Shown here: positions 32,761 to 57,070 of the stretch, piece by piece
Layout: each line of letters begins with the position of its first letter
Numbering within the stretch: the first letter of the stretch is position 1
Source of the DNA: Apostichopus japonicus
Taxonomy: Eukaryota; Echinodermata; Holothuroidea; Aspidochirotida; Stichopodidae
NCBI RefSeq assembly: GCF_037975245.1
Contig: NC_092583.1
Coordinates: 3,712,764 to 3,776,763 of the forward strand
DNA length: 64,000 bases
Direction of reading: 5' to 3'
Notes under the pieces: model-generated
Told to the model about the DNA's origin: nothing
What the model saw: the letters and a program-made list of their open reading frames with translations, nothing else
Databases searched by the model: none
Program-made: the position numbers and the translations under genes

Positions 32761-35700
32761 CGTCTAGTTAACAACTGACAACTTAAAATGAACTTAATTA
32801 CTCTGATGAAACGTTGTTGCGAATGGAGATTCTGTCTCGGTTTGTGCCTAAATGGTCTGAACCTTATTTCACTTTACGATTAATTTGAATCTTTTATGTT
32901 GTTATCCAATTTCCATTCAGATTTAACGTCTTGAAATACACAAATTAGGTTACATTTTAATACGGTTTTCTTTAACCACCTAATTAACCATTGTTTAGAC
33001 AAATTGATGGTGACTTTGATAAACAATGTCGAGTAGAAGCATAAAACAAAGCAACAAATTTAAAAGAAGCAAAACAAAGAAGAAAAAAACAAGTAAAAAT
33101 ACAGAAAGAAAATTTCTAGTTACGAACATCAACTTAGAATGAACTTAATTACTTTGATGAAACGTAATTGCGAATGGAGATTCTGTCTCGGTTTGTGCTT
33201 AAATGGTCTGAATCTTATTTCACTTCACGATTAATTTGAAGCTATGATGTTGTTATCCAATTTCTATTCAGATTTAACGTCATGAAAATGCACAAATTGG
33301 GTTACATTTTAATACGGTTTTCTTTAACCACCTAATTAACCATTGTTTAGACAAATTGATGGTGACTTCGATAAACAATGTCGAGTAGAAGCATAAAACA
33401 AAGCAACAAATTTAAAAGAAGCAAAACAAAGAAGAAAAAAACAAGTAATACAGAAAGAAAATTTCTAGTTACGAACATCGTCTTAGAATGAACTTAATTA
33501 CTTTGATGAAACGTAATTGCGAATGGAGATTCTGTCTCGGTTTGTGCCTAAATTGTCTGAACCTTATTTTCTTTACGATTAATTTGAAGCTTTTATTTTT
33601 TTTATCCAATTTCTATTCAGATTTAACGCAATGAAAATACACAAATATGGTAACATTTTAATTAGGTTTTCTTTAACCATCTAATTAAAAATTGTTTACA
33701 AAATTTATTGTGGCTTTGATAAACAATGTCGAATAGAAGCATAAAACAAAGCAACAAAATATAAAAGAAGCAAAACAAAAACAAAGAAGAAGATACAAGT
33801 ACAAAGACAACAGAAACACGTCTAGTTACAAGTATCAACGTAGAATAAACTTAATTACTTTGATGTTCGTAATTGCGAATGGATATTCTGTCTCGGTTTG
33901 TGCCTGAATGGTCTGAACCTTTTTTCACTTTACGATTAATTTGAAGCTGTTATTTTGTTATCCAATTTCTATTCAGATTTAACATCATTAAAATACACAT
34001 ATTCGGTTACACTTTAATTGGGTTATCTTCAACCACCTAATTAACCATTGTTTAGAAAAAAATTATGTTGACTTTGATAAACAATGTAAAGTAGAAGCAT
34101 GAAACAAAGTAACAAATTGAAAAGAAGCAAAACAAAAACAAAACAAAGAGAAGAAAAAAGTAAAAAGACAAAAGAAAAATGTCTAGTTACGAACATTAAC
34201 TTAGAATGAACTTAATTACTTTGATGTACGTAGTTGCGAATGGATATTCTGTCTCGGTTTGTGCCTGAATGGTCTGAACCTTACTTTTCTTTATGATTAA
34301 TTTGTGGCTTTTAGGTTGTTATTTAACGTCATGAAAATACACAAATATGGTTACATTTTAATAAGGTTTTCTTTGACCATCTAATTAAAAATTGTTTACA
34401 AAATAAAATTTAAAAGAAGCAAAACAAAAACAAAGAAGAAGATACAAGTACAAAGACAACAGAAACACGTCTAATTACAAGTATCTACTTAGAATGAACT
34501 TAATTACTTTGATAAAACGTAATTGCGAATGGATATTCTGTCTCGGTTTGTGCCTGAATGGTCTGAACCTTACCTTTCTTTACGATTATTTGTGGCTTTT
34601 ATGTTGTTATTTAACGTCATGAAAATACACAAATATAGTTACATTTTAATTACTAGTTTTCTTTAACCACCTAATTAACCATTGGTTACATAATTTATGG
34701 TGGTTTTAAAACAATGTCGAGTATAGAAGCATAAAACAAAGCAACAAAATTAAAAGAAGCAAAACAATGAACAAAGAAGAATAAAAAAGTAAAAAGACAG
34801 AACGAAAATGTCTAGTTACGAACATTAACATAAAATGAACTTAATTACTTTGATGTTCGTAATTGCGAATGGAGATTCTGTCTCGGTTTTGCCTAAATGG
34901 TCTGAACCTTATTTCACTTTACGATTAATTTGAAGCTATGATGTTGTTATCCAATTTCTATTCAGATTTAACGCAATGAAAATACACAAATATGGTAACA
35001 TTTTAATTAGGTTTTCTTTAATCAACTAATTAACCATTGTTTACATCATATATGGTAGCTTTGATAAAATGTCAAGTACAAGCATAAAACAAAGCAACAC
35101 ATTTAAAAGAAGCAAACCAAACCAAAAAAAAAACAGAAGAAGAAGATACAAGTAGAAAGACAAAAGAAAAATGTCTAGTTACGAACATTTACTTAGAATG
35201 AACTTAATTACTTTGATGTACGTAATTGCGAATGGATATTCTGTCTCGGTTTGTGCCTGAATGGTCTGAACCTGACTTTTCTTTACGATTAATTTAAGGC
35301 TCTTATGTTGTTATTTAACGTCATGAAAATACACAAATATGGTTACATTTTAATTAGGTTTTCTTTGACCATCTAATTAAAAATTGTTTACAAAATAAAA
35401 TTTAAAAGAAGCAAAACAAAAACAAAGAAGAAGATACAAGTACAAAGACAACAGAAACACGTCTAGTTACAAGTATCTACTTAGAATGAACTTCATTACT
35501 TTGATAAAACGTAATTGCGAATGGATATTCTGTCTCGGTTTGTGCCTGAATGGTCTGAACCTTACTTTTCTTTACGATTATTTGTGGCTTTTATGTTGTT
35601 ATTTAACGTCATGAAAATACAAAAATATAGTTACATTTTAATTACTAGTTTTCTTTAACCACCTAATTAACCATTGGTTACATAATTTATGGTGGTTTTG

Positions 35701-36506: not shown

Positions 36507-36512
36507 TTTATT
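36507..36512 (-). promoter_or_regulatory. Polyadenylation signal AATAAA
   Basis: AATAAA on the minus strand, 94 nt beyond the TAA stop at 36606-36608 of the DED-ZU5 gene. Position and strand fit a 3' UTR end just before the satellite array. Confidence 0.6.
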
Positions 36513-36605: not shown

Positions 36606-36904
36606 TTATGGACACACTGTTGCTTGAACTATGGGGTTGTTTCGTCGGAACTCTCTGACAAGCTGTGCACATTCTTCATTTCCTTGTTCTGTCAGGGCAT
36701 GTTCCAGTAAGCTGATGTTTGTCGCAGATATCAATGAATTCTTAGTCAGCATCTCTAACAAGAAGGCTCCAGGTCTATGGTGCTTCTCAATATCCATAAC
36801 CACATTTTGAGAGAGTCGAAACATATTTGCCAGCTGAACACCTTCGCCTTCATGAAGATGATACGATAAGTCCTTCTTTAGCTGAGCAAACGAGTCGATA
36901 ATTG
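36606..36904 (-). CDS. Death fold 4, terminal exon
   Basis: 98 codons plus TAA, phase 1 in, acceptor ctttgcag. FAQLKKDLSYHLHE, VQLANMFRLSQNV, RPGAFLLEMLTKNSLISATN and CAQLVREFRR form a complete DED-like fold, followed by ten residues to the stop. Confidence 0.85.
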
Positions 36905-39900
36905 CTGCAAAGTCATAACATGAGATGATTATTACAATGACAACAATTAAATATTAAATGGGAATAATCCCAGTCATCATCTCTTATTACCAGTGGTGCA
37001 TGCATGCTAAGTCTGAGAAACAGCTTATTTCATATCAGAAATATCCTAGAGGTCAAAGGTCATATCGAGGGCAGCTATTTTGCCATTGTGTGTTCTTACA
37101 GTGCCACTATAGAAGGCGGAAATCCCCTATATTGAACACAGTTCCTTCTTTTATTTCTCACATTTGCATGGTGAGTTAAAAGATTGTTGTTACTGAATGC
37201 CAGAATGAGATCAAGTTAGACATGTTCTTAATCATTGCAGCAACAACATTGTTTGTTTTTTTAATGAAAGACACGCCAAAAACGGACTGAAACTATTCTT
37301 AGTTGTTTATTGGCGTTGTTCTTCATAACGCTCAGTCTGTAAAAAATACGTTTAACTTGATGAGGGTTAGATTTGTATCTCTTACATTTACGAATGCATC
37401 TATTCCTGCAAGCTACTTGCTGAATTGAGAGTCAGAAATACAGTTAGAATGATTGCTCAGGACGTTCAGTGGAACTGAATCTACAGACAAGTCATCAAAT
37501 ATAGGGATGGATTTCTAAGCTACGAATGAATGAATACACATGCACATACTACCAAAGTCAAAACCAATAGATTAATTACTCCATGAATAGAAGATATTTG
37601 CCTCTCTAAAGAAATTGAGTTCCAGCAACTCATAAAATGTGTTGCAAGTCCATAATTGTTTACACCTATAATGCTCGAAATACCGGGTATACTTGTAACT
37701 CCATCTTTAACCATAAGCATATAAAATAATAGAAGTTCTTCCAGAATAGGAACTTGAGTGCATCTGCCGACACCTAGTTTGACTTTTTCCTCTGTAAAAT
37801 TGTTAAAAGCAATCTGAAGATTTAAGGTTTGCTTCAAAGTTACATTGTATTACTTACATTGCGGTGGTATGTGCTGGAATGGAGATTCGATTTGGTCAGC
37901 GCGCCGGAAGTTTTCAATCTTTGTAGGGAAAACAGAAGAGAGAAAGATTAATGTTTCTTATAATAAGCTGTGCTTAAGTGGAAAAAACTTCTTCATATAT
38001 TTAGCCATCTCCTCTTATCATCAGAAGGCGTCACAGTAATACTTGCTTAACTTAGGAAGTTAACTCGCAACTTGAAGCAAGTTCACCATAGCTTTTCATG
38101 TCGGTATTCCATCAATTTTCCCAGTATTCCACGAAAAAAGATATGTTAACTTTAGTTTACACAAATGGCATCTTTTGAACACCACAAATGTAAATTAACG
38201 TTGCATTTCAGGCAGCATCATTTAAGATTAACTTACCTTCATTTCATTCTTAAATTGAAAGAGAAAAAAGTTCTTAAAATCCAGTGTCTTATTTCAATTC
38301 TGAGATTGGCATTATGTCTTATTCCTTTCCATCGTGAAGTGGAAAAGCTTAATCATATATTTAGCCTTCTCCTCTTATCATCTGTAAGCCTGACAGCAAT
38401 GATTGCTTAACATAAAAACGTAACTTGCAACTTTAAGCAAGTTCACCTGGTATATATTATTTTCACGGTATTCCACGATAAAGATATAATAACTTTAGTG
38501 CACATACAGACAGCATCTTTTAAGTACTACAAATGTAAAAATGTCGATAGTTTAACTTACCTTCAACTCCACGTGAAGTTGAAAGCGAATAGTTCCAAAA
38601 GTCCAGTTTCTTGATTCAATTCTCAGATTGACAGTATTTCTTAATCCTTTGTTATGAATCTGGAATGCGCATTTGAGTCTGTTTTGTAACCAAAGGTTAT
38701 CAGTGTCAACATTCTTTAAGAGAGAATAAGCAGAGGATTTTTCATCAAGGTATATCTAGAAAATCTGTATGTATATATATATATTTAAATATATATATTT
38801 AAATATTCATATAGCGCTTTACATAAAAGAATATCTCAAGCACTTTACATGGGACTATAGTAGAATCTTAAGAATTGAAAATATAAGATACATAAAGAGT
38901 ATTCAAAGGAATAAAGGAGTAAAAACAAAATCAGAGAATAAATAAATTTAAAACAAACTCAATCAATCAATACGTTAATGAAACTAATATAAACAAGGTT
39001 AAGACAATTAACAAAGATCATTCAATAACAGTAAATGATAACAACATAAGTTTTAAGTCGGCCATGGTTAAGTAAACAGAGAATCATGACTTACTACCAA
39101 TTTAGGATCAGAAGTACATTGTGGAGTGGAGCAAACAATATTGACAGGGAACGTTGACCCCATGGATTTGAGAACAAAAGACACAGGACGATGAACTGCC
39201 AATCCTTTGTTTTTGTAGACCTCTTCATGGATTATGCTCTGTTAATAGAACAACACTTGCTTAATATATCAGTTGATCGTGTATACACATTTTATTGCTC
39301 AATACTACACAGCCCATTTCCATATGACTTCAAATGACACTTAATATCTTAGACTTGATGATGTTTGCTAGAAAATGTTGTGTCTTCTCGTTTATAAACG
39401 ATCACTCAACATGTCTCACTTCTGACTGAAATCACATGGCAGTCACTTAATATTATTGTCTGTTTTTGAACTGAAATGAATTGTCAGTTATTGTCAATAT
39501 ACATCCAACGAATAACTGGTAGGTGTATTTGCTTCGCATCGCTGTAGGTTTTGCTGGCAGTCATCAATTACTAATTGTCTTATCGCTTAAGAACTGGAAT
39601 ATCTAGTTACCATTTTATTACTTGTTTAAGTGATTGTTATTGGGCTACAACAAGTTTGCGTCCATCATCCATGGCCATCGACAGCCTGCTCTATGAGTCA
39701 ATACTGAAATGATCTTCTAACACCTATTCTTTTTATGCAAGATTATGACTGTGATGAAAAACCGGAGCGTATTGATTTTCAAAAAGGGTTTCTGTAAAAA
39801 AGTCCTACTGTAACAAGGCGGGTATTAAGCCTTGACTGCATAGGAAGAAACGTTTGTCAAAAGAATGACACGTACATGAAGAGACAAATGGATTCTTTGA

Positions 39901-42900
39901 GATCCGTGACCATGCAGAGGCAAATAACTTGATAAAATACTGTGCTTACTTCATGTTCCAATTTTTCATCGTTGTGAAACCAGAGATGGAGAGTGAACTG
40001 ATCCCCCATATTAGAAATGTTTACAATTGGTAAAACACAGACACGCTTCTTCATTTTGGGTATGTATGGAACGTGAAGACCAATGAGACAGGGCTTCTGA
40101 GCTTCAACTTCAAGATGATTAGTAGTCATAGAGCAACTGAGGTGTTTCTTTTCTGGGCTCCATTTCACAGATTGATCTGAAACAAAATGGCGTCACAATG
40201 AAGTCACTTGAGCATAATAATTACTGAGGCGTTAGTTACATCAAACGTTGGAGGAATCAACGTCTGGTACAACATAATGCCAATAATTGAAATGGTATCC
40301 TGCTCCAAAATCGAGAAAAACGCTATTAAATTAATATGTTGAAATATATATTTGTACATTGAGAGTAATTTAACGCTGTTTGGAATAGAAAAATCATTCG
40401 TTTGCCCTACTTTACGCTAGCAAGATCATTCCATTCGGTCTCCTAGTTGTATTGACTATTCCTTTATGAATTTACAAAACAAAAAAACGGTAAATAAAAG
40501 TTGGAAGGTCAGCAAGGCCATGAATATCATTGCAATATTATAAATGAGATATTATAACAGGGCGCCACTGCCCTGTTAACTTAATATAACATGTTCCATC
40601 TTGCACATTGTGCATGTAAAGTAATTCTTTTTAGCTGCACATTGCTGATTACCTGTTACTTATTTTAAATCCCATTTGGTGCATGGACTTAACAATGTTA
40701 TGATAAGATTGACCTACCCTTACCATAAACTTTACCAGAAAATACTTTACCATACTTTACCATACTCTACCATAGTCACCCCCACTTACCATACTCTACT
40801 CTACTGTACCATACTTTACCATAGACTACTTTTACCATAGTTTCATTCTGGTAATGGTTTATATTGTCAAACATCCATATATATTATATCGTCTGTAAAT
40901 AATACCGAAATGGTTCAGTTCAAGTCTATGCATAAATCTACCCTGCTCTCTCTGGTTGTTTATCCTCTTGAGTCTCTGTAACTTGCTCTTAGTATTTCGT
41001 CAGTGATCCCTTTGTTAGTTTATCTTTCTATAAGTGACTTTACTTTGGGGATTCCCGTCTACAAGATGCTTCGTTAAGATTTGTTGTAAATCTCCTCAAT
41101 CTATATATTTACATTTATTACTACGAGCATCTGTATCTTCTGATTTGCCAATAGTGAAAACGACTACAAAATATTGAAATATAGTCTTGAAAATACAAAA
41201 ATAAAATGACAAAGTAAAGGAAAGGAATTAACCTGTTTGTAATACACCAGAGTACACATCAATACCAGTCTGGATACTCGAAGTAAACGCGCAATGTGGA
41301 ATAGACAACGAGACAGGTTTGTGTAAGGTTAGACCTTCTGGGCCAAATTTCACAACAGGGCTCATCCGTAGACTCTTCTTTAAGATAGGACCTTTAATCG
41401 CAGGGTCATTAGAAACCCATAGACTAATAATCCTTCCAGTGTGAAGTGCATTAGCTGGTACAACCAGATGAAGACCTGCGATATCCATCTCTCCTCCATG
41501 CTGATCAATGTATTGTTCCTTATAAAGAGTTGATCTTGGGAACAGAGGAAACCCCTCTATAGGAGACAGATAGAGAGTTATACATAAGGAATTGATGAGT
41601 AAACAATACATCTTGTATTAATATATTGTATATTTTAAGTAAGCTTGTGGAAAGTTTGTCTACTCCATTTTTACGGAAATTGAAATTGACAGACAAATCA
41701 AGGTTATTAAGGATAGATTAAATTCCTTGGGCGACCAAGATAGTTGAGATTGATATCAATATAATAACCCATTATGTCCGACCAAGACAGTATAATAAGA
41801 CGTAAAAATAACTCACACAAAATCAAATATCTTTACACATTACCTTCTTTTTCAAACATAAGCACTGACATTAATGAATTGGTAAATATAGTTGCCATTT
41901 ACAACTGTAGCCAACCACCTGATATTTACAATCTCATGCATTTATGAGCTTCAATATATACAAACAGTACTGTACCATGCGCTTCTTTAGCAAGCAGGAG
42001 TATCCGTCTGGCCAAATCTAGTTTGCCGAAAGACAATTTTAAGGCTCGTTGGATATCCAGTGTTGCGTATTCCTCTTCTTGCAAAATTTTAAAAGATCTC
42101 GTAGACTGAAATTCTCTTTTTGAGATCACGTCCTGTCTCCACAATTATATATGTAAAGGGAAAGACAAAACAAGATATTAATGTAAAATTGAGTAATAAT
42201 CGTATTAATGTTACTTTCAATGGAAATCCCATGCAATGGTCCTTCTCTTTTGGTCATCGTGGCATATTGAATATTAGTGGCGAAGAATCTTGCTTTCATT
42301 TGTTAATGGATATATTTGGAATATAGGAAGTAGAGCTGTGTGACGGTCAGATGAGCAATAGTTTATAATTTTTTCTCGAAAACTTAGAAAGTTTCCCATA
42401 ATTTAAGGATTTTTAACATGTTGACAGTTCTTTGCTTCAAACATGGGTACCGTTCTATTTTTTTTTGTAAAGCGTAAGCGTTGCATAATTATTTGATAAC
42501 GATAACATACGCGATGGCAATGACCACGATAATAAAACTTCATGAATAAACTTATATGCCTGTACGTTTTAAGAAATTACACACCGAATTCTCGTTATAT
42601 TGTTCTCCTTCCTTTGCATGCTTTCTCGTTGACATATCGATGTACTCTAGGGCCACTTTTGCAACCTTATTAAGGTGAATAGCTTTCAATCCTTCATACA
42701 GATCAATAATTTTGTCTGGCTTGATGAGCTCAGTTTCGTCTAATATTTTCATAAGCATCTTTCCAGGTTCTTCTGCTGTCTGGATTATGTGCTGATCCTC
42801 TGGTTTGAGTTTGAAGCGTCCACCTAGCTTTTCACAATGTTGCTTGTCCAGAAGCTGTGATAGTTCCGCTTTCAACTTTTCGTATGCGTGTAAGTCTAAA

Positions 42901-45900
42901 AGTGAAGGCATACCACCAACTTTTACATTCAAAGAAGGAACTTGATTAATTGAGAAATCAAAGCGTTGAGGATAGATCTTTTACATAATATATTTAGCGT
43001 GCAAGGGATCATGTATATTTGTCATAGTTTTAAAAGGGTAAAGTTCAATTTGGATTACTGCAGCGTAACATGAAAGCCAGATTACTAATACTCCCCAGCC
43101 CCAATCAGACACTCGCATGGATGCGTTTATGTGATAATGTGTTCATTTATTGATCCACATCATTTAAACGTCATTTAAACACCCACTGGGATATGTCGTT
43201 GTTTAGTATTATAATGTTTCACATCCACTTAGGCACTCTGCTGGGTGTGCGTCTATAATTGATGTGTATTTTTGTCCCACCTGCCACTTAGAGACTCACC
43301 TGAGTAATATTCTCGAAACAGCATTTTAAGACTTGTTGGCGAAAGTATAATATTCTTTACCTGATGAAATGAAGAAATAAAGACGACTTCCTTAATTGAC
43401 AACTTAAATAATATTGGAAGTATAATCATTCATACCATAAAATTAACCGAAAGCTAAATTTAATTCTTAACAGTTATATAGCAACTGCACGCAAAAAAAT
43501 GGAGTGTTGAATTTTAACACTTCCCAGGTGTAACCGTTCACCCTACACCTGAAGGGTTACTCTGACCCTGAGTAGGGTTACATAATTTATGTAGCGTGGA
43601 TTTTTTAACACCTGCAGAAGTGTACTTTCAGTTCGAGCATTCTGATTGGTCAAACCTCCCGTCAGCTGGATTCTTAGTGTAAGTTAAGTGTTTAAACGAT
43701 ACCACCGTACCGTGAACACCCATTTACCGTACCCAGCAATACTTGTACCAGTTTGTCGACATTTATCGTTACTAAATGTACTATAGTAACCACAGCCATA
43801 TATACGTTCAAGCCACAAAACGTTACGTACTCAGTGTGCGATAACGAGCTACAATGGCATGAAAATGACGTTATAGGAGACTGGGGCCTGGAAGAATTGA
43901 TTGAAAAATTCGAAGGTATGTTTTGATATTATGTAAGTGTACGTGACAAGAACGAGATATGCTTAGAGACCCACGACTAAGCTGGGTAGACGAATGCATT
44001 TGAATCGCTTGCGTTACGTAGACCTAACGTTAAAGTCATACTATAAGTTAATATAATAGGCTAGCTGCTGTTTGTCATAGTCAACTCATAATTGTCAACG
44101 AATCAGTGTAGCCTACATACAAGTAAACATTAAACGGAATTGCCTTCGGACGGACGGAGGACTTTGGTCTAGGCCTTTATTGTAATCTAGTGCATTCTAT
44201 TCCTTTTTGTGCGTTAACCGTAACTTCGTATACCCTGCGAGTCACTTTTTTAAGTAGTACTACTACTAGGCCTAGCCTAGTACTAGTAGGGTATACTTAG
44301 GCTATTTCAAGACAATGCATTTTAAATAGCATCGGGCATGGGCCTATAGTTACGCTGGTACTATGTTCAATAAGGGATAAACATATATTCATGTAATGCA
44401 ATATATAATTACCACTAATTGCCATTTTAGCTTGTAAGTTGTAGCAAGTAGGCCGAAGCTGATGTGGATTGGTGATACTTTTAGACCTAGGCCCAACTAT
44501 AATTTAGCTATCTTATGGAAGTGATCTAGCTGTTATAATTCATATCAATCTACACAATTGCATACAGTGGGAGTGAGCATTGTTTTAAGCATTGTTAACA
44601 TGATGCATTGGTTATAAAAGTTGCCTACCTTGTCTGATGAAAGTTTAATGCAAGTTCCTGTTTTGACAAGTAATCACTATAGGCCATCTGGCTTTCTAGA
44701 TTCAAATGTACTTGAAGAAGTTAGAATCACAACTGATTAAATTGTGTGCATTTTCTTTAGCAATGTTCATGTTTTGTGAGGGGTACATGTACAAAACTGC
44801 TTATGCTCCAAGAAGGTTTTAACACAACTTCATTATGATGGGAATTTTCTTTTCTTTTCTTTGTTGTTACTTAGGAAGCATCAACTTGGAATTCTATTTG
44901 CAAAAGATTTCAGAAAGACCTCAGCAATATGTGTTACTTCTTGGAGGAAGCAAAATACACCCCAAGCAGTCATTTGTGATCATCCAGAGACATGCCCTAC
45001 CCCAGAGGACATTTATGAAGCCATTGATGTTTGCTTCAAATTATTCTACGTGTTAAATCTGAATTATACCAAATTGCAAGTCTCGGTGCCTGGGAATTTT
45101 TCCAAAAAGTTGTCTACAAGTTGCCTGGTGGTGTGAAACGCAACCAGATTCAAGATTTTTGTGCTCACCGTGCCGACAAAAAAGACAAAGTTACTGCAGT
45201 TTAGCAGTTGTCATAGACAGAACTCCATGTTTCCTCATCTCACGGATCAGCATATATCTAAAGTTGTTGCTTATTTGGAATTGTCTTTGGGAAGAGTTTT
45301 TTCTTTGTGTTTAATTTGGAATACCAAAGGCACGAGCCAACAACAAAGACAAAGTAACTGCAGTGTAGTAGTCATCATAGACAGTACTCCACGTTTTCTC
45401 ATCCCACGGATCAGCATATATCTAAAGTTGTTGCTTATTTGAAATTGACTTTGGGAAGAGTTGTTTCTTTGTCTTTTATCTAGAAACCAAAAGGCATGTG
45501 CAAAAAAATAAATACCAAGTAACTGCACTGTAGCATTTGAAAATGTTGGCACTTTTAAGTTGACTTAATTCCACAAGACAATACTTTTATAGCCTAAATT
45601 GTACGTTTTACATTTAATGGGATATAATAAATGGACCTCTGGAATAGGAAGGTAGTAGGGTGTTTAATTGCTGAAAATCCCACATTCTGAATTGTTTGTG
45701 TTGTCATTGCTTTTTGCTCTCTCTTAAATGTAACTTTCTGCTGTGAGCGATTCAAACATGCATCCATATTGTTTACCTAATTACTAGGTAATACTTAACC
45801 TAAAACCTGTATAAAATATTTACTAAACGGGTGCGATGTAAACTTATCTGGCAAAATTTTACATAACAGTATTGTATTTGCGTTACATAATAAACATGTA

Positions 45901-48900
45901 AAACTTTACAAACCAGCAGTTAAATATACATCCAGAAGTATAAACGAGAGAGCACTATTGTGTGTTGAGAGTCCATTAAGTATCATCTTGACACAGATGA
46001 CAAATGAACACTATATGGTGGTAATTCTACTCACTGAAGCAGAACTTTGACACCCAGAAGGCCAAAAAATGTGCACTAGAGTGTTAATTATACTCCCTGA
46101 AGTGCAATTTTGACACCCAGAAGTGCTAACAAATGAACACTTTATGGTGTTAATTTTACTTCCTGAAGTGTCATGTTGACACCCAGAAGTTTTAACAAAT
46201 GAACACTTTATTGTGTTAATTTTACTCCCTGTAGTGTACCTTCAACACCAGGAAGTGTTATTTTGACACTTGTATGGGTGTTGTTAAGGCAACACTCGCA
46301 AAGTGTTATATTATGTTACACTTCTGAAGTGTTAATTTAACCCGGTGGGTGTTGTCCCTAATCCAAACAGGGTGGGCTGTTAAATTCAACACTTTACGAT
46401 TCAAATTTAACACTTCATTTTTTTGAGTGTAATGGAAATAAAAGATACCGTTCGTTGAAGAGCAACAATTGGGTTTATCTCATGTTCATTACATGCCTCA
46501 GATGACCAGTTATATCCCAGACGCTGGAACTCTGGTCACGTGACTTCATGTTCTGGATCAGGCTTACAAGTATTACACAAAACGTTTAGTATTCAAGAAT
46601 TTAGTACAAGACTTCAATTTTAGCGCAGCAAATTGTAGCAGCAATTCATGCAAATTTGGTAAAGATATACCAATTGTTCTGCTTAGTTTGTTATTAATAT
46701 GAATTTGCTGTAGCCCACTCTATTTTTTCATATCAAAAAGTCTAGTTATGGTCTGTATTCTACCGCAGTTCTTGTGATCAGTGTAATGATTTCATGATTA
46801 CATGATGATTTCCCTTACTTTAAACTTCATGTGTCTATATTACTCATGTGTCATTACTTTTGTCTCAATTTTCACGCCAGAGTCGCTATTATTCTTGGGA
46901 CGGTTGTCAATGTCAGAACATCAAAACAATGCGCTCTGATTACTATTTGTGTTAAGATGCGCTTTTCTCATGTAGATGTGCGTAAGTTAACACTAGTAGG
47001 CAATCCAATGCAGTAGCAGATCCCTAATCCATCATGTGATGTCCGCACTCAGGACGCACATCGTTACAACCAAGCAAGTTTGGAGTTTGCGAAACACCTC
47101 TTTGATCCTTTGAAGTTCATTGATCCCAATGATATTTACGTTAACTAATATGCTACAAACATTGCATGCCCTTACTTCTTACATTGATTTGAAACTTTCC
47201 TTTTACCTACATTGGCCACATAACCATTGAAGTTTCATCAATGCTGTAAACTTTCAGAGTATGATATCTCGTGCTCACCGTTTGGGGGTTTCGAGCATTT
47301 CCCCTTTTTGGTGCGTGTGCAATTGCCAAAACGCTGTTTTCAACTTTGACACCTCACACATTTGTATGTATGTATTTAGATCCTCCTGCAAGCAGGAACT
47401 CGCGAAGAAGCCTCACTGGCACATCAAAGCCGCAAGCTGACCGAAGTCAGTCTCCTAGATCGAACCGGGGAGCTAATGATTGGAAGGCACCGGAGTTAAC
47501 CACTGAGCTAACACTCCACTCCATTTGACCCTTCATCGCCATAGCTGAATTCTGCACTTCATCTGACACCCAGGAACATAGCCATCAAGTTTGAAGTCCA
47601 TGCCGGATGAGGGTTTGGGAAGAGTTCGAGACATTCTTTTGCCAAACTTTGAACAAAGTTGACTTCAATTGACCACGTTACCCATGGAACTAGAGGTTAA
47701 ATATCGCCATGAATACGTTCTATTATCGATTTCCTGCATGGGTGTTTGGATTTCTGTAACTTTGTTAGGAGCAAAATGGTCTTTCTGTTATTTGACCTCC
47801 CATTGTATGATGTTATAGGTAGCGGAGATGCGGATCCATTTCCCCTCACATACGCGCCAAGTTTGAAGACCATAGGACTTACGCTTTTTGATGACTTCGC
47901 GGCCTTTTCGTACAAATTTAACCAAGTTTGACAATTGACCTCTATGGACCATTGACCCAGGGTTATTTCAGTGGCGGAGCTAGGGGTATTGGTCAGGGGG
48001 GCGAGAATGTTCTGTGGGGGCGCTTTCGACACTATCTAAGCGAAGCGCCACCACAGGCTGGCGCGGAGCGTACAGACATTTTTTGAGTAAAGATAATCCC
48101 TAGATTGCTGAAAATGACCCTTTCCGGGCCTTGCTAATTTGCAGACAAACGAAGAATAAACAGGTGTCATCGCCAACACAATGTGACAAATATTAATAGG
48201 TAGATGACAGCGCAATAAAAAAGGCAATAATCGCGAATAAGTAAAAGTGGTTAAAAGCTGAAAAGTGCGCCAGCAGTCCGTTTGAGTCCGTCAGGGGAGC
48301 CTTCCGCCCCCTGACTGTATGGACGCCCCGCCACTGTGTTATTCCTTATTTGACGTTTGAAATCTTTCTTACCTTGGATTGCATAACTTCATACGTCACT
48401 GAGACATTTTCACTAATACCCAGGGACACATCAACAGAGTTCGAAGTGAATCAGATTTACGGTTTAGGAAGAGTTAACGACACATCTATTAAGCGTTCAA
48501 GCACCCACACACTGGACCTCACGCAAACGGACAAGATACGTCATCTAACCAAAACTGGAATCCCATCACTCATTCCTATGTCACAACGATGGACTTCATA
48601 GTGCCAATAAATTTGCAACACAATACATGTCCATTACTTCTATGGTATTCGATAAAGCCCAAATGCTGCCACAGCCAACTGACTCAGATATGTGACCACC
48701 ATATATCAGATGTTTTTAGTGATGAGTTAAATGATCTTAAAAAACATCGTATAGAAGAAGTGTTGCTAAAGGGCTTTATATTCCGTACAAACTAGATGAA
48801 ATAAGCATATAATAATTCAGAGGCATCTTGTTTTAATCTTCCTTATTTCATAGAACAAAAGCTTATGCAGAAAGAGCTTCCTTAATTCCAACATCTTACC

Positions 48901-51900
48901 ACATGGGCTGAGTAGGCTAAGATCCGAGCAATTTAACTCACCTTTGTTTGGAGAAAAACAGTTAGCTCGTTCTCCTCAGTTTGTGACACTTTGAGCCTCA
49001 CATCAACCATATCATTGTCTACATCTGGGTTCCTTTTGAGTCTGAACTGATGAGAGACCCTACTGGCGGCACAGAGGTGATCGATTTCAACATGCTAATA
49101 GACGAAACAGGTATTCGGAAACAATTAATGTAACAAAAATAAAAATATTGCATTTAATTCTGATTTGAATAAAGCTTAGACTAAGTAGGAAAATGAAAAG
49201 TTATGGTCTGAACTTAAGAATTATACGACAGGCAACTTTGCCTGCCATGGACATCTGTAAAGAGATGATGGTTGACTTCACTGCTTGTAACTTTGTATGT
49301 TTAACTTTACTATTAATAAGAAAAATGACACGTCCTTTCTCCTTTCGGAATATAACTTTTGAATGCCAGTAAATACCTAACCTTTGATGACTCTTCTTTG
49401 GTCAGATGGTAACTATCGTTCTTTGAAAACACCATGAGCTCAATATGGGAAGTCTCATCTCTGTCGCCACCCAATGTCCGAGTAATTTGAATTGTTTTGT
49501 AGTTCCCGAGACTCAGTTTGGACGAGTAGTCTTCTAATAACATCTACAGTATAAACAAATACCACAACGTTTACTGAAAGTAAAAAAAATAAAGAAATAA
49601 AATCCCCAAGTCTCTTCATAGGTCGTGAGCTTGAAAAATCAAGGTTTTGCTGCCAACTAAAAGTTTTATGGAATTTTTACGGTATAATTCTCAGTGTTTA
49701 TTTTAACACATTAACATGTTACAAAACCGAGATCTTCAAATTAAGGAAATATATTTTTAAACATGCAATTTATTTGAAATTAAATGTATGTGTTTCTTTA
49801 TCATATTTCAATACCATAATTTCCACATTGACTTCTGACGTTATGGCATGATTTTAGACTGGATTTCAAGATATGATAACCTTGTAGTCTTCTTCACTGT
49901 CCTTAGAGAAACAAACAGTTATCAAGAGATCTTCTTTGGCATCAAGAATCCCATCAATGAAGAAAACAACACGGAATATGTGTTTCTGTTCTGTTTCTTG
50001 GCTGACTAAAGTAACAAAGATGTAGCTCAGGATGTTAATGTCAAAACTGATCTTCTCTCGGTCTAGTTTGCAATCAGTGGTTTCCTCTTCATTCCAAGTT
50101 ATTTCACCTATGCATGAGAATATGATGCAAAATGTCAGTCAATCGTGGAAAAGTAATTGCATAAACATTTTGGCTAGCATATATGACATGCACGAAACTA
50201 TCTGATAAGATAACGGTACCGAGATACGCATATTCCATGTTGTACTAATTCTTCCAAGTTACTTCATACATTTATCATCTTGTATATATATGATGTTCCT
50301 AAAACCTGATTGATGGTCACCAACTTTACCTGTTTGTAAATTTTCTTCATGTTTACGACCAGCGAAGACAGTAACACGTTGGCAGTCTGTTTCAGAGATG
50401 AGAGCTGAATGAGGAACAGTCAATCGTGCCGGCTTGTTGAAAGTAAGTCCTTCTGGCTCCAGTTGAATCACGGGTGTCATCCTGCTCCCGCAAGCAATAA
50501 CAGGGAGTGACACATCATTGTGATTTTTTACTTTGACAGAAATTACATGATCATTGGATAAAGCATCCTTTGGAATAGTTAGACATATCCCCATGACGCT
50601 CATGGTACCGCCTTCAAAGTTTATCTTGTGCTCCATGTATGAATGACTGCGTCTCATGTGATGTATTTGTGAATCTTTTTTTGTTCTTGGTAACTCTTCA
50701 TCATGTTCAGGATGTTCCTCTGTTTCTTCTCTTTCTGTAGATTCTTCATATAAAGTGGCTTCGTCGACACTGGCAAACGTTTTATCTACAATTAGAACAG
50801 AGAGATAATTAAATTTACCAAAAGACAAAAAACTAACACATTTTTTTCAGGAGTTGAAACCACAACGTGAGACATCTGCGTCACAAAAATGACCCAATGG
50901 ACGTTTTTGCATTCTACAAGAAGATAGCTCGAAGGCGATGTAAGACTGATCAATACTGAGCAGAGACAACATTCATCATCCACCTTTGGCCGTAGCAATT
51001 CAAGAACAACAAACAACCAACATCCAATGGGAACTCATTAAGGTACTAATGGGTAAGGCTAGTTTATATTGTATACGGATTTTAAATACTGTTGATCTAG
51101 AATGAACCATATTATACATCGAACAAAATCACTTACTTGGCACAAGGTTTTTACATTTTAGCACCGTTGTCAAATAACTTTTGACTTCCAACATATTAAG
51201 AACATTTTAAGAAATATTTACAAACAACTGACCATGAGTGGAAAGAATTATTTCGAATAGGCTTAACAAAACGCTTGAATCGTATGACAAATGCTGACAG
51301 TAATGATATATGATATAGACGAAACCTGTATCACTTAACCACCCATAAAAAGGGTATGTACATATCTCCTATATACGTGATTATATAAACAGAATTGACG
51401 GATTTTGTTATTAATTTCCCTGGTTAACAAACTTATAATAAAGAACGGACGATCACATTGGTCATTAAGAGGAAGCTGCACAACACATATAGCACTCACT
51501 AAAATTGCAATTAATATAAGGAAAGGTCACATGCAGAAACACATACACACTCCATCCATATACTCCACTACCATCACTGATTTCCCTTTTTTTTTTAATA
51601 TCTTACTTACCGGGCCAATCGAGTAATTTCGGTGTTTGGTTTTCTTCAAACTGGAATTGCCCAATCTTAGCTTGGTATGGAACTAACAGATTTTCGTTTG
51701 TTCGGTTCAGCTGAATACACAACAAACCCTTTTGTAGGTTAGTGACATCGTACATGTTGATGATGTTTTGTGTCTTTATGACGTTAAGCAGAGTTATTCC
51801 TGGTGTCTCTATCAAAGAAACTCGACGCAGCTGATTGGTTTGTGCCGGTGATAAACGAAATAAAGCCGCTAATCTTAGAGTGTTATCTAGAGTAAGATCT

Positions 51901-53919
51901 TCAGCAATACCGACCATTAGTCTGCCGAACTCAGCTGAAATAAATAAAACGAACAGCAAATCAAGACGCAAAATAACACGCGCATGACAATACAAGTTGG
52001 ATAATTAAAGATGATATTTGAATACCAATGTTCCAACTTTTGCATTTGTCTCTGAGAAAGAATTTACCATATTTTTAATTTCAGCCCAAAGTGAAAATTT
52101 GTAATTTGTTTCATAAATATCATTCCTATTAAAGCAGATTCTTGTGTTGTACCGTTCTCAAAAGTCCTAGCGTAATAATATTTACCCATAATTTGATACA
52201 CCTACGTACGCTTGAGTCTTAGATCGTTAGATTTAAATATTTGTTAGTCGCTCCACCAAACTTAACAGTTATGTTTTAGAGATAAGGCAATAGCAGCTCG
52301 CACAAGCTTGTTCCTCGGTGAATGGTTCTTTCAACTTACAATTCTTCAATGTTTGTATTTTGATTTTAACGTTGCCTATGATAAAATATATCTTATAAGT
52401 CTGGTTATGATCATGTGATTACTTTATAGCACACGAATATATATCATGTTCACACACATACTTTTGAAGCTCCAAGGAGATTATTGTGTGTTTAGCCTAT
52501 ACCGTATTGTTGGACCTCCTAACTTGTGGAACATCTCCATACTATATCAGGGGATATACATTTTGCGAAGAGATAAATTCCTTTGCTGACTCAACGTCCA
52601 TTTTTTCCAACATACAAGACACACGATAATGTACAATCATACTAACCAGAACTGACAGTGTGGACACAAATATGGCATGACTTCCTCTGTGATTTACATG
52701 ACTATTACTTACAGGTACAAAACTGCGATTACGACTAATTTAAGTGAGTCAAAAGTTAAATGACTAATTTTGTTCCAGAGCCACTGATGAAAATATCAGA
52801 ATGATGAACACATGACCATATATCAGCAAATCATGTGTATCAACTAGCTCTTATCACTTTGACCTTAAACGCACTTAACATTGCACATTGTATTGTATAT
52901 TCTGTAGTTAACCTTGTAAAACTGATTCCTGTGATACGTCTGGAGTTTCCATTTCTTGAGATAATGTCTTTTTCTTTGTAACGGAAGCTGGTGTAACCTG
53001 TAAATGAATGAATGCAAACATGTTGTCTCCAACCACCAGAAGAAATTCACAAACAGACTTTCCATGATTGCTCGACATGACAGTAATATAAAGACCAGCA
53101 TTGAAGTAGCAAATTGGTAAGGGGGGAAGTTTGAAAACATTTTAATATATCTTAATGGCGTTGACCTTACTTGGGTTTTGTCCTCCCTAAATTATGTTGC
53201 CAAATTCTGTCATTTTGTGTTATTAGAGCAGCATATCTTCAAGTATCACTATCTTACTGCAAAATGGTTTTAAGAGTGAAATGATTTTTATCTTTGTTTA
53301 CGACAATGACCTTTGAACTCGACCAACAACAATTTATATTTTCTGTCCTCAATGATGTACAAAGTCCTATGACGCTTTCAGTTATTTGATACTTTCATAT
53401 TTTCAATTTGTTTAACATCTAATGATACAACTCATTTACATGTTTTCTGAAGTGAACATATTATGATATCTTACTTGGTTTTGTTGAGCTTTCACTGCCA
53501 ATGCCTCAGTTAATTGCTCCTTCTCATCCTCCACCTTCTTTAGTCTGTCCTCCAATGCCTTCAGTATAGTAAGAAGTGACTGATTTTCCTCTTCTGTGTT
53601 CGTTAATCTGTTTTGAACATCTTCCCTTCCACTTTCGTTGCCTCTCTGTCTCTCTTGCTCTGTTGTTTCTAGTGCATATTCGAGTTTCTGTCCCTCAGCG
53701 TCTGGAGTTGTAAAGTTACCTACGATACAAACAATTATATGATATGTGGGTGTATGGATGTATGTAAGATACTTTGAACAGACTCTGTTAAATGAAATAG
53801 AAATGAACGACAAAGGTAAACGAATATAATTGTTGTGAATTGGAAAATTCAGAACAGTGAAAACACTTCCAGCCTCCAAGAGGATTCGGACCCGGATCTC
53901 CCGCTTTATAGGCGGACAC

Positions 53920-53959
<40 letters not shown>

Positions 53960-53991
53960 GTTTTCTTCTCTATATATATTTCAATATATTA

Positions 53992-54049
<58 letters not shown>

Positions 54050-54473
54050 TTATTTATAGGGTGTCTGTGACACAAAGTTCCGGGATTCGATTCCTACCTT
54101 TGTTCTATCTTTGAAATGACCGAACAACATAATGCTAACAAATAAGTACTCTGCTACTACAATTTGTACAAGCGTGTAATAAAAATGTACCGTGACATTC
54201 ATAAAACTCCAATCCCGCAACTAATTTTCTCAGTCCTGTTTGAGAGCATGCCGTCACCAAAGGGCGGATGTCTTGAGAAGAAAAAACCCCATTCTCTCTA
54301 AGATGTCCGAGGAGGGATGATACGGGGGCAAGACTTTCTAGAATGGACTTTGATTTATTTGTGGAACAGTTGAAATGGTCGAGTAGCTTCTGGCAGTCAT
54401 CTTTCTCAGCCAATGTTTCCAACGTTACCAATAAATTCTCATAACTGAAAAGTTCCCTCTGTAATAGAAACAT
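36606..54473 (-). CDS. Multi-death-fold ZU5-UPA protein (16 exons, about 1,229 aa)
   Basis: Exons: 54191-54473, 53475-53719, 52913-52997, 51611-51934, 50330-50785, 49881-50107, 49382-49543, 48942-49094, 42585-42977, 41976-42132, 41233-41556, 39950-40176, 39098-39238, 38561-38713, 37858-37918, 36606-36904. All junctions are GT/AG with matching phases and no stop. Order: death fold 1 (1-95), coiled coil (about 135-176), death fold 2 (about 206-300), ZU5-1 (about 385-460), UPA-1 (466-645), death fold 3 (about 665-750), partial death-fold exon (777-829), ZU5-2 (about 845-936), UPA-2 (938-1110), death fold 4 (1132-1229). The four folds share a P-(G)-x-x-LL-x-x-L pattern followed by an I-x-x-L helix, as in death-effector domains. 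ZU5-UPA modules occur in ankyrins, UNC5, PIDD and DTHD1 next to a death domain. No signal peptide or membrane segment is seen, so it is probably cytosolic. A signalling scaffold role is inferred. Confidence 0.8.
37858..37918 (-). CDS. Short leader exon before death fold 4
   Basis: 20 codons plus one base, phase 0 to 1, acceptor acaaag, donor gtaagt. It reads IENFRRADQIESPFQHIPPQ, the counterpart of the leader of the death fold 3 exon, which is not split there. Confidence 0.65.
38237..38335 (-). pseudogene. Decayed duplicate of the UPA-2 last exon
   Basis: It retains the donor acttac (gtaagt) and aligns over about 33 codons: NLRIEIRHWILRTFFSF against NLRIESRNWTFGTIRF. It has a TGA one codon before the end and lacks the first third. 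Product of the tandem duplication 37976-38713; splicing it in would end the protein. Confidence 0.8.
38561..38713 (-). CDS. UPA-2 last exon (functional copy)
   Basis: 51 codons, phase 0 to 0, donor gtaagt. A decayed duplicate of this exon lies 325 bp downstream at 38237-38335. Confidence 0.75.
39098..39238 (-). CDS. UPA-2 middle exon
   Basis: 47 codons, phase 0 to 0, acceptor ttaacag, donor gtagta. It reads IIHEEVYKNKGLAVHRPVSF and VNIVCSTPQCTSDPKL. Confidence 0.7.
39950..40176 (-). CDS. UPA-2 first exon
   Basis: 75 codons, phase 1 to 0, 227 nt, acceptor gtttcag, donor gtaagc. VKWSPEKKHLSCSMTTNHLE aligns with the UPA-1 exon. The HFS-site equivalent reads KPC, again without the catalytic His-Ser pair. 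Confidence 0.72.
40177..41232. other. Intron between ZU5-2 and UPA-2
   Basis: AT-rich. It contains a degenerate tttaccatac repeat at about 40735-40830. No exon seen. Confidence 0.6.
41233..41556 (-). CDS. ZU5-2 exon
   Basis: Residues 829-936, phase 1 to 1, acceptor cctatag. ZU5 hallmarks: GGEMDIAGLHLVVPANAL, SPVVKFGPEGLTLHKPVSLS and IPHCAF. Paralogue of ZU5-1. Confidence 0.88.
41976..42132 (-). CDS. Partial death-fold-like exon
   Basis: 52 codons, phase 0 to 1. FKILQEEEYATLDIQRALKL and GKLDLARRILLLAKEAH look like the last three helices of a death-effector fold without the first half. This could be a remnant of a further domain. Confidence 0.7.
42585..42977 (-). CDS. Death fold 3 exon
   Basis: 131 codons, phase 0 to 0, acceptor gtaaaag, donor gtgtgt. 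After a leader (IYPQRFDFSINQVPS) comes a full fold: AYEKLKAELSQLL, EKLGGRFKLKPED, EEPGKMLMKILDETELIKPD and LYEGLKAIHLNKVAKVALEY. It resembles a DED more than a classic death domain. Confidence 0.84.
45182..45505. repeat. 170-bp tandem duplication inside the TIR transposon
   Basis: The two units share cacggatcagcatatatcta and gttgcttatttg and are 85-90 percent alike by eye. Non-coding. Confidence 0.8.
46000..46260. repeat. About 60-bp subterminal tandem repeat, four copies
   Basis: Units contain gaacactttatggtgttaat, ctccctgaagtg and gacacccagaag. They lie near the right end of the TIR transposon, where such subterminal repeats often bind the transposase. Confidence 0.8.
46431..47397. other. 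Intronic, GACC-type diverged repeat
   Basis: No coding sequence. 47040-47690 has caagtttgg and ttgaagtccat phrases in degenerate repetition, similar in style to 22900-23480. Confidence 0.45.
47398..47520 (-). mobile_element. tRNA-derived SINE
   Basis: On the minus strand an A box (tagctcagtggttaactcc) and a B box (ggttcgatctagg) at tRNA spacing, starting at about 47520. Different family from 16140-16480. Confidence 0.7.
47969..48336. mobile_element. hAT-like MITE, family D (copy 2)
   Basis: Ends CAGTGGCGGA and, inverted, CAGTGGCGGGGCGTCC. The body matches 9774-10154 including the gcgccaccacaggctggcgc palindrome. Flanks ggttattt and tgttattc agree in 6 of 8, an aged duplication. Confidence 0.8.
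48345..48941. other. Intronic, no exon seen
   Basis: Between the MITE and the UPA-1 last exon. Two plus-strand ORFs (48350-48601, 48589-48795) have no domain and run antisense to the gene. Confidence 0.45.
48942..49094 (-). CDS. UPA-1 last exon
   Basis: 51 codons, phase 0 to 0, 153 nt, donor gtgagt. It reads HQFRLKRNPDVDNDMVDVRL. Identical in length and phase to the exon at 38561-38713, which reads NRLKCAFQIHNKGLRNTVNL. Followed by a 6-kb intron holding a TIR transposon, a SINE and a MITE. Confidence 0.74.
49382..49543 (-). CDS. UPA-1 middle exon
   Basis: 54 codons, phase 0 to 0, acceptor actgtag, donor gttagg. Counterpart of the 141-nt exon at 39098-39238. Predicted beta-rich, with GNYKTIQITRTLGGDRDETS. 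Confidence 0.72.
49881..50107 (-). CDS. UPA-1 first exon
   Basis: 75 codons, phase 1 to 0, 227 nt. It reads ITWNEEETTDC and FDINILSYIFVTL. The position of the HFS autoproteolysis site in PIDD and UNC5CL appears to read ILS here, without His. Same length and phases as the exon at 39950-40176. Confidence 0.72.
50330..50785 (-). CDS. ZU5-1 exon with acidic leader
   Basis: Residues 313-464, phase 1 to 1. The first 50 residues are Glu/Asp-rich (EESTEREETEEHPEHDEELP), then the ZU5 hallmark: FEGGTMSVMGICLTIPKDAL, TPVIQLEPEGLTFNKPARLT and IPHSAL-like VPHSAL. The second ZU5 exon (41233-41556) lacks the long acidic leader. Confidence 0.88.
51611..51934 (-). CDS. Death fold 2 exon
   Basis: Residues 205-312, phase 1 to 1, acceptor atttcag, donor gtaagt. 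LRLAALFRLS and IETPGITLLNVIKTQNIINM align with death folds 3 and 4 of the same protein. The end leads into the charged stretch before ZU5-1. Confidence 0.78.
51935..52912. other. Intron between linker exon and death fold 2
   Basis: AT-rich, no repeat or exon recognised. Confidence 0.6.
52913..52997 (-). CDS. Short linker exon
   Basis: 28 codons, phase 0 to 1, acceptor atttacag, donor gttaac. Ser/Thr/Lys-rich (VTPASVTKKKTLSQ) with no domain. Supported mainly by splice sites and by bridging neighbouring phases. Confidence 0.65.
53475..53719 (-). CDS. Coiled-coil exon
   Basis: Residues 95-176, phase 1 to 0. A hydrophilic start is followed by heptads with Leu at a/d positions (LTNTEEENQSLLTILKALED, then KKVEDEKEQLTEAL). 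This indicates oligomerisation between death folds 1 and 2. Confidence 0.82.
53866..53923 (-). mobile_element. tRNA-derived SINE head, minus strand
   Basis: Reads (minus) gggtgtccgcctataaagcg then a B-box-like gggtccgaatcc, the same family as 4972-5066. It abuts a (TA)n tract. Confidence 0.6.
53924..54047. repeat. (TA)n microsatellite in intron
   Basis: About 120 bp of TA with one 35-bp interruption, between two oppositely oriented SINE fragments (53866-53923 minus, 54058-54105 plus). Confidence 0.95.
54058..54105 (+). mobile_element. tRNA-derived SINE fragment
   Basis: gggtgtctgtgacacaaag followed by ccgggattcgattcct (B-box-like). Same family as 4620-4703. Confidence 0.5.
54191..54473 (-). 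CDS. Death fold 1 exon (possible first exon)
   Basis: It can start at ATG 54471-54473 (MFLLQREL), or begin at the acceptor ttacag with 54458 as its first base (phase 0). Residues 1-94 hold a six-helix pattern ending SSLLGHLRENGVFSSQDIRP, typical of a DED/CARD C-terminal half. Donor phase 1. The choice of start decides whether the upstream propeller is fused. Confidence 0.8.
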
Positions 54474-55438: not shown

Positions 55439-57070
55439 CTTACAAGATACTTTTGTCACTTGTTCACGGAATTTCCTTTTCATTTGAAGGTTTTGTATGT
55501 TATAACAGTGATAATGAAATAAATGAATGCCAACTCTTTGCATATAAACGTGATATATTTAATAATTGTAAATATATGTATTACTTACTGTGTGGAATCC
55601 ATAAATTTTATCAGTTTTCTGGGCGACAGCAAACATCCTGTTTGCTTTATTATTGATCCTCATTTTCCAGCAATTGTAAGGAAGGTTAAACGAGGCCAAG
55701 ATGTGTCCCTCAGAAAGAGAATGAACATCACCGCGCATTGATTCGGTATGTAGTCTTCCCCATAATATAAATATGAATCCATTTTCTTCACTGACGGCCA
55801 GAGTCCAAGCCACCGCATTCTCATGAAGTGAAGTTTTGAATTCCCTTTCTAGTTCTCCCTCGTCATTATACATTAAAGCCCTCCCATACAAGGTAGCGAT
55901 GAGCACCTTGTCATTTCTCACGGCTATATCTATAGGACAGTCTTCACGATCCTCTTGTAATCCTCTTAAGGTGATTGTTTTAGTTTGGTCTAAATGGGCA
56001 TTAAACACAATCACGCAATCGGAGCAACGGATACCAACAAATAGCAGCTTATGTCCGGTTGTCATACACCAGGGGCGACCGCTGAAATTCTGTCGTTTGA
56101 CTAAACTGCCATCACTACTATCGTATAATTCAATTTGATCCTCAGAGCACGTTGCGAACAGACGATCATCCAAAAAACAAACGCACCGAGTTGATGAGTT
56201 CGCAAAGGTCTTAGAATAATATGGTTGTGAATTGTTTAATAACAATTTCTCTTGAGAATTGGTATCATTAGGTATTTTATATAGGTCGACGAAGGTGCCA
56301 TCGTTGCGTTCTCCAGCCACACCCAAAAGACGATCATCCAGCACAGCCAATGACCAGATATTGCGACGATTAGCAGCAGATCTTGAATGTTGTATGTGGA
56401 AAATGGAAAGTTATATCAGACGAGAGAACCGCAATTATCGGTTACAATTACTAATAAGTTTGACATATCATTCCATTTATATGAAGGTATTATATTGTTA
56501 TATAATATTGGAAGAAAACTAAATTAAATTAGTCCGTGATGACGCCAATACATACGCCTTGCGATCATTGGCAGAGCGATTTTTGTACTGTTGCAACTTT
56601 GTAATGTTCGGCATAACCTACTTTGATTTTTAAACATTACAACATCGGTTTCTGTCGCTCTGCAACATAATTTAATGATAAAATATTTCAAGTTCTTCAC
56701 AATCCTCATATGTTCGTAAGTCACGTCTCTTCTGCTCTGTCCTAGATAAGGTGTAGGACAGAGTCCCAAAGAAAAGCTTAAAATTGGACTTTTCACAACC
56801 AATGATGTCCGTAACTAAGGTTTGATAGCACCTTTTGACACAGACAACCTGAAACTAACTAACTCCTAAATATTGTATGATTACTTAAAGGTACCGATTC
56901 ATTTCCAACCGCATATGATGACGTGTTCATCGAATTAGGATAGTAGCTGAATTAAAAGGAATTATACCAAAAACCCTACCCAGTCCCAACACCCAACCTG
57001 GTGTAAAAGCTATCTAGATTAGTCTAGATGTTATATACTACTATACTTACATTGAGATGTTGTCGCCCAT
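55346..57070 (-). CDS. Beta-propeller unit upstream of the DED-ZU5 gene
   Basis: Coding exons 57051-57070 (MGDNIS) and 55589-56381 join in phase and give 271 residues, with about six blades: 14-60, 70-107, 109-147, 155-190, 195-238 and 243-271. Each blade has a strand pattern such as DRLFATCSEDQIELYD, as in WD40/NHL-type propellers; no family is recognised. Exon 2 ends in phase 0 at a strong donor (gtaagt). Two continuations fit: a terminal exon 55346-55438 (TGRIAIGKDVQVYVPC, stop, 301 residues; ATTAAA at 55307-55312), or splicing to 54458, fusing the propeller to death fold 1 (1,495 residues). Start context is good (aaaATGG). Confidence 0.75.
55589..56381 (-). CDS. Propeller main exon
   Basis: 793 nt, acceptor attcaag, donor gtaagt, 264 codons open throughout. 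It holds nearly the whole propeller, an unusual single-exon concentration compared with the small exons of the neighbouring gene. Confidence 0.85.
57051..57070 (-). CDS. Propeller first coding exon
   Basis: ATG at 57068-57070, MGDNIS plus two bases, donor gtaagt. It joins exon 56381 to make a clean Ile codon. The short coding part and the good Kozak context support it; the 5' UTR extent is unknown. Confidence 0.65.

Follow-up and report, generated by a model that had tools for sequence, protein, structure and literature searches.

A sea cucumber gene with two ZU5-UPA blocks interleaved with death-effector-type folds, and the large family to which it belongs

The minus strand of a 64 kb stretch of the Apostichopus japonicus genome (the window; contig NC_092583.1, positions 3,712,764 to 3,776,763) raises the question of whether one gene can encode two ZU5-UPA blocks with death effector domain (DED)-type folds before, between and after them and, if so, what such a protein would do. 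UNC5, PIDD and ankyrin have a single C-terminal death domain, and a sequence-only reading of region 36606-54473 had proposed one protein with a layout unlike theirs. Both the single protein and its unusual layout are upheld by the analysis described here. The region is a portion of a longer gene, which belongs as a diverged member to a large family that is already listed in databases, where its members are unannotated in function or otherwise named.

A gene of 19 exons

The gene extends from 57070 to 36606 in 19 exons, all in phase, comprising 1489 codons with the stop inside exon 19. Its model was rebuilt from open frames and splice signals, with the splice sites at exons 12, 16 and 17 refined against relatives; the homology searches, domain maps and similarity table rest on the first splice version, of 1510 residues. 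The sixteen exons recognised earlier do chain in phase, but their extent fell short, the propeller exon and the probable start having been missed. The features, with the evidence for each, are as follows.

57051..57070, minus strand: exon 1, 20 nt, probable start (MGDNIS), with an ATG and a GTAAGT donor in phase with exon 2
55589..56381, minus strand: exon 2, 793 nt, beta-propeller-like, about 264 residues; matched by relatives, WD40_like below cut-off
54191..54458, minus strand: exon 3, DED1; Pfam DED E 0.0071 over positions 1-79 of 82, profile similarity to DED3 and DED4
53475..53719, minus strand: exon 4, coiled coil; one profile match in the window copy
52913..52997, minus strand: exon 5, linker; tblastn and alignment
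51611..51934, minus strand: exon 6, DED2 and linker; profile similarity to DED3/DED4, end junction borne out by P0079
50330..50785, minus strand: exon 7, acidic linker and ZU5-1; Pfam ZU5 2.4e-10, P0079
49881..50107, minus strand: exon 8, UPA-1 part a, 227 nt as in exon 15; P0079
49382..49543, minus strand: exon 9, UPA-1 part b; P0079
48942..49094, minus strand: exon 10, UPA-1 part c, 153 nt as in exon 17; P0079
43300..43360, minus strand: exon 11, linker to DED3, 61 nt as in exon 18; tblastn, strong splice sites
42585..42895, minus strand: exon 12, DED3; tblastn, profiles, fold of the paralogues' DED3
41976..42132, minus strand: exon 13, UBA-like three-helix domain
41233..41556, minus strand: exon 14, ZU5-2; Pfam ZU5 1.3e-13, family profile to PDB UNC5B E 1.6e-5
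39950..40176, minus strand: exon 15, UPA-2 part a, with the candidate positions of an FS-type cleavage site
39095..39238, minus strand: exon 16, UPA-2 part b; tblastn, splice refinement
38561..38713, minus strand: exon 17, UPA-2 part c; tblastn, UPA fold of a paralogue
37858..37918, minus strand: exon 18, linker to DED4; in phase, aligned with relatives
36606..36904, minus strand: exon 19, DED4 and stop codon; tblastn, profiles
36507..36512, minus strand: candidate polyadenylation signal AATAAA, 93 nt past the stop codon

The relatives are 86 proteins in all (73 from A. japonicus and 13 from Holothuria leucospilota). In tblastn at E 0.01, matches to relatives fall in every exon region but that of exon 1 and nowhere else in the 64 kb. 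The region of exon 18 is matched in tblastn by the model itself alone, and the alignment with relatives covers this exon. Exon 1, which is without homology support in the relatives' tblastn, is the least certain of the model. The paralogue models P0013, P0014 and P0017 (about 1590 residues each, gene predictions and not transcript reads) align end to end with the window model at 52-53%, and a single gene is therefore strongly supported.

The locus also has a public model, P0079 (BSL78_28185, A. japonicus), with 99.8% identity across a stretch of 435 residues that takes in exons 6-10 and four of the junctions. It departs from the gene after exon 10, its last 40 residues being encoded at 47450-47569 (minus strand), within intron 10, and it is truncated; this ending could be genuine, as an alternative end, or an error of prediction. 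Two adjacent genes, the first terminating either within intron 10 or at DED3, where the read-through stop lies at about 42552, and the second starting near exon 13, would fit the end of P0079, the reading of the DED3 exon into a stop past a modest donor, and an ATTAAA located 104 nt downstream of exon 10. Such an arrangement is nevertheless very improbable, because the two blocks are joined in one chain in 42 of the 73 A. japonicus and 8 of the 13 H. leucospilota relatives, and neither AATAAA nor ATTAAA was found within 1.1 kb past the DED3 read-through stop.

Domain order and the duplicated block

According to family profiles, the domains of the window protein follow the order propeller, DED1, coiled coil, DED2, ZU5, UPA, linker, DED3, UBA-like exon-13 domain, ZU5, UPA, linker and DED4. 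The four death-effector-like folds, the coiled coil and the ZU5-UPA blocks had been correctly listed by the sequence-only reading, which left the UBA exon unrecognised and missed the propeller-like one. It had also suggested looking for the same order among echinoderm proteins, and the order does recur in two sea cucumbers: in 19 of the 73 A. japonicus relatives a strict test recovers all ten domains (coil and linkers excluded), many of those failing being truncated models, and H. leucospilota P0047-P0049 retain the order as far as profiles reach. A diverged DED1, read by eye, stands behind the propeller in P0047 and P0049; no coiled coil was detected by profile in P0047-P0049, and the UBA is below detection in P0047.

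Compared exon by exon (ZU5, UPA parts a-c, linker, DED), the two blocks agree in start phase in six of six cases and in length in three (227, 153 and 61 nt). Within the window protein the blocks resemble each other in the ZU5 (z 30) and in the linker plus DED (z 7); UPA-1 and UPA-2 show no similarity there (z -0.2), and reach 70% when compared by family profiles. To judge from these phases, lengths and similarities, the ZU5-UPA-linker-DED unit is duplicated inside the gene. Pfam UPA had no match in the window open reading frames scanned, and a single weak UPA_SH3BP4 match was obtained in one of 26 members, the UPA assignment being based on position, on the 70% profile comparison and on the predicted fold of a paralogue. 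In that structure model the ZU5-UPA part has UNC5b as its best match (PDB 3g5b; Foldseek 3.9e-14), with matches also to NLRP1 and CARD8. The succession expected of ZU5-UPA-death-fold proteins, that is, ZU5, then UPA, then a death-superfamily fold, is present.

The death folds earlier proposed for the exons at 54191, 51611, 42585 and 36606 are similar to one another by profile, but the Pfam DED gathering score (35.9 bits) was reached by no DED scanned in the window, the family consensus or the relatives. The best scores were 21.2 bits (H. leucospilota DED4, E 3.5e-4), 19.9 (DED3 consensus) and 17 (window DED1), and Pfam DED matches at E up to 1 occurred in four of 26 members, the best at 4.1e-4. 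The profile comparison cited is the stricter version, which guards against truncated relatives contributing the wrong DED and gives lower figures. The predicted DED3 of paralogues has the DEDs of PEA-15, caspase-8/cFLIP and viral FLIP as best single-domain fold matches; from the model of P0026 (A. japonicus sequences only), poor overall with a mean pLDDT of 39, DED3 and DED4 alone were used. In the DED tree the sequences fall into a single group per position, with support of 75/35 for DED1, 92/89 for DED3, and at least 90/91 for DED2 and DED4, although long branches leave the deeper order unsure and the DED1 group is weak. Each of these groups contains both species, which suggests that the layout is older than the split between A. 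japonicus and H. leucospilota.

The family consensus of exon 2 matches Pfam WD40_like with E 2.7e-4, under the cut-off, and the coil profile matches once in the window copy as compared with 2-16 times in the 19 complete relatives. Among these 19 proteins, which include near-copies, conservation is lowest in the propeller and DED1 (78% each), intermediate in DED3 (81%) and highest in DED2 (93%). The domain of exon 13 is UBA-like: its A. japonicus consensus matches the CBL UBA (E 0.0094), and the H. leucospilota versions match the CBL-B UBA (E 0.0019) and, below cut-off, Pfam UBA (0.019-0.035, another family scoring slightly better in one of the two). Profile alignment to UBA by hhalign gave 94.8% and a score of 35.5, where 50 shuffles reached no more than 13.5, and the predicted structure consists of three helices (pLDDT 58-69). 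The window copy had no Pfam match and carries Glu at the GY-loop position held by Gly in relatives. A look at the helices had led this exon to be taken for a half-DED, an idea abandoned in favour of UBA when the profiles gave less than 1% to every DED.

Self-cleavage of CARD8 and NLRP1 requires the second serine of an SFS motif (PMC3210808). In block 1 the corresponding position, unreadable in one of 60 rows, reads L/M-S in all 46 A. japonicus rows, including the window, and L-T in all 13 H. leucospilota rows. For block 2 there are three candidate places. The first is of HLS/HFS type in 32 of 39 readable A. japonicus rows and in none of seven from H. leucospilota; the second is of HF/L-A/E type, without Ser; and the third, pointed to by a low-confidence profile alignment with block 1, is occupied by P-C in A. 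japonicus and by F-C in H. leucospilota, Cys being present in 44 of 46 rows. Read by eye at H-F/L-A/E, block 2 had seemed to lack the serine needed for cleavage, a claim withdrawn as the block profile alignment shifts the place a few residues on, to P-C/F-C. The relatives P0032 and P0033 read HFSW and NFSW, respectively, at their last block, which in both ends in Pfam Death (3.4e-12 and 3.2e-10). This last block, composed of ZU5, a UPA-sized stretch and Death, is near the PIDD/UNC5 layout.

A family expanded in two sea cucumbers

All relatives listed by the protein searches (about 8000 candidates scored per search, within a length window) belong to A. japonicus or H. leucospilota. Their UPA-1 segments, 67 including that of the window, fall at 97% identity into 59 groups, 13 from H. 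leucospilota and 46 from A. japonicus, the latter mixing two gene sets and including fragments; at least 29 distinct A. japonicus groups hold proteins from four long contigs. The window segment shares its group with P0079. In a tree of 46 rows, 12 H. leucospilota sequences stand apart from the 34 others with 100/100 support, the window forming a long branch. At the level of sequence, groups and tree indicate that the family expanded separately in the two sea cucumber lineages. In the available parts of the literature on ZU5, death effector domains and UNC5 in sea cucumbers and echinoderms (including PMC5638244, PMC8195603, PMC11508797 and PMC11925454), no account of such a layout was recognised.

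Of the 86 relatives, two carry NACHT by source annotation, which was confirmed. In P0060 (H. leucospilota), a DED-like N-terminal stretch (27 bits with the DED3 profile, no Pfam DED match) and NACHT precede DED2-ZU5-UPA-DED3 in one predicted protein, and in P0046 (A. japonicus) NACHT lies behind the ZU5-UPA-DED module. An NLRP1-like layout and merged gene models are both possible. No Pfam NACHT match occurred among the window open reading frames scanned.

Elsewhere in the window, a Tc5/pogo-like DNA transposon remnant lies upstream of the gene (58879-59689, minus strand); it is spread over two frames, with DDE_1 at 8.5e-10 and HTH_Tnp_Tc5 at 3.4e-4, which narrowly misses the cut-off. The minus-strand segments 19232-20122 and 23820-24446 carry a LINE-type reverse transcriptase (RVT_1 6.8e-14) together with an endonuclease-like match, the latter weak (0.0057). 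A satellite-like array, lying partly in an A+T-rich stretch and built of units that measure about 290-360 bp, spans 32779-35686.

Possible function and comparison with known systems

On balance, the protein is probably a cytosolic sensor-scaffold in which ZU5-UPA modules restrain death folds, with innate immunity or cell death as its most likely setting rather than netrin guidance. In the mechanism we envisage, the faster-changing propeller/DED1 end would meet a ligand or partner, the coiled coil of variable length would cluster chains, and the two ZU5-UPA modules would restrain the adjacent death folds, by analogy with ZU5 in UNC5b and the FIIND proteins. Upon activation, UPA and DEDs would be freed to oligomerise and recruit DED or caspase partners, and the UBA could bind ubiquitin on the assembled complex. 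The FIIND structures, which are similar to autoinhibited UNC5b, provide the precedent, since in them UPA is held by ZU5 and kept from assembling (PMC8081665). UPA lowers the CARD8 filament concentration from 15 to 0.25 uM, termed almost 100-fold by the source (PMC7794386).

A wider proposal is put forward more tentatively. Sea cucumbers, in at least two lineages separately, may have built large sets of cytosolic sensors on a duplicated FIIND-like clamp that controls the assembly of DEDs and not of CARDs, a variable propeller sensing and the UBA reading ubiquitin, and such a repertoire may account for most of the "234 netrin receptors" discussed below. A new signalling system is plausible.

The protein could instead be an inhibitory scaffold, with DEDs capping or sequestering FADD/caspase-8-type filaments like FLIP or PEA-15 and the family expanded as a cell-death brake or decoy. 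The fold matches of DED3 suit this idea, as does the lack of an evident catalytic domain among 25 of the 28 Pfam families listed for 26 members; the exceptions are one member that contains a transposase stretch and P0013, whose propeller part gives a weak Glu_cyclase_2 match. It seems unlikely, however, because folds of this kind are common to all DEDs, UPA promotes CARD8/NLRP1 assembly (PMC7794386), and the relatives with a Death domain and HFSW/NFSW resemble activators more. Slightly less likely again is a structural or trafficking adaptor like ankyrin, devoid of a death-signalling role; in our judgement, immunity is the better fit for four DED-type folds and for large lineage-specific radiations in which the propeller end changes fastest.

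There remains the name under which part of the family is known. Sixteen of the 86 relatives are called "Netrin receptor UNC5" in UniRef, and BSL78 protein names presumably originate in the 2017 A. japonicus genome project. The paper on that genome counted 234 netrin receptor genes, read as compensating for the absent central nervous system (PMC5638244). These 234 may largely correspond to the multi-death-fold ZU5-UPA family. Ig and TSP1 gave no Pfam match in 10 window open reading frames, the propeller consensus, P0013, P0032 or P0033, and are absent from the 25 of 28 Pfam families listed for 26 members. No membrane span was detected in the window model (maximum hydropathy 1.55); hydropathy of at least 1.6 occurs in 10 of 31 relatives, with a top value of 1.83, and among the eight highest listed most lie in ZU5/DED parts and one in the propeller. 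In place of the single C-terminal death domain of UNC5 the window has four DED-type folds, Pfam Death being limited to P0032 and P0033 among the 26 members scanned. An expansion of true UNC5 netrin receptors as a neural adaptation, favoured by the UniRef names and by UNC5b as best ZU5-UPA match, is thus contradicted for the members examined, which have propeller-like and DED-type domains where Ig, TSP1 and a membrane span would be expected, and it is hardly credible for the family. UNC5C has been used as a coelomic epithelium marker in holothurian gut regeneration (PMC11925454), and may designate a true UNC5 or a member of the ZU5-UPA-DED family.

ZU5-UPA modules govern well-studied death and inflammasome switches (PIDD, NLRP1, CARD8), and one that is duplicated and interleaved with DEDs would reveal further processes under the control of the clamp. 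Some members have a plain FS motif and others do not, a natural comparison by which to ask whether cleavage is required. If the sensor-scaffold reading is true, the published neural account of the 234 "netrin receptors" becomes a hypothesis on the innate immunity of a farmed animal that can be put to the test.

Among known systems, the lineage-specific TRADD-N/DED expansions of marine invertebrates also join DED-type folds to other modules, in some cases with UPA-ZU5 (PMC8195603). TRADD-N is the constant part of those families; in the window family it was looked for by Pfam scans only. In comparison with the FIIND proteins NLRP1 and CARD8, the window gene has DED-type folds instead of CARD and a duplicated module, and is without NACHT or a clear FS motif in either block. 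PIDD1 combines leucine-rich repeats with ZU5-ZU5-UPA-death domain, has no membrane span and carries an HFS cleavage motif, comparable to the HFSW of P0032, whereas the window gene has two complete ZU5-UPA-DED units and no clear HFS. With the cytoplasmic part of UNC5b (ZU5-UPA-death domain; PDB 3g5b) the gene shares the ZU5-UPA fold and order and the death fold that follows, but in it no extracellular Ig/TSP1 or membrane span was found, and the ZU5-UPA block occurs twice, with DED-type folds before, between and after, together with a coiled coil, a UBA-like and a propeller-like domain.
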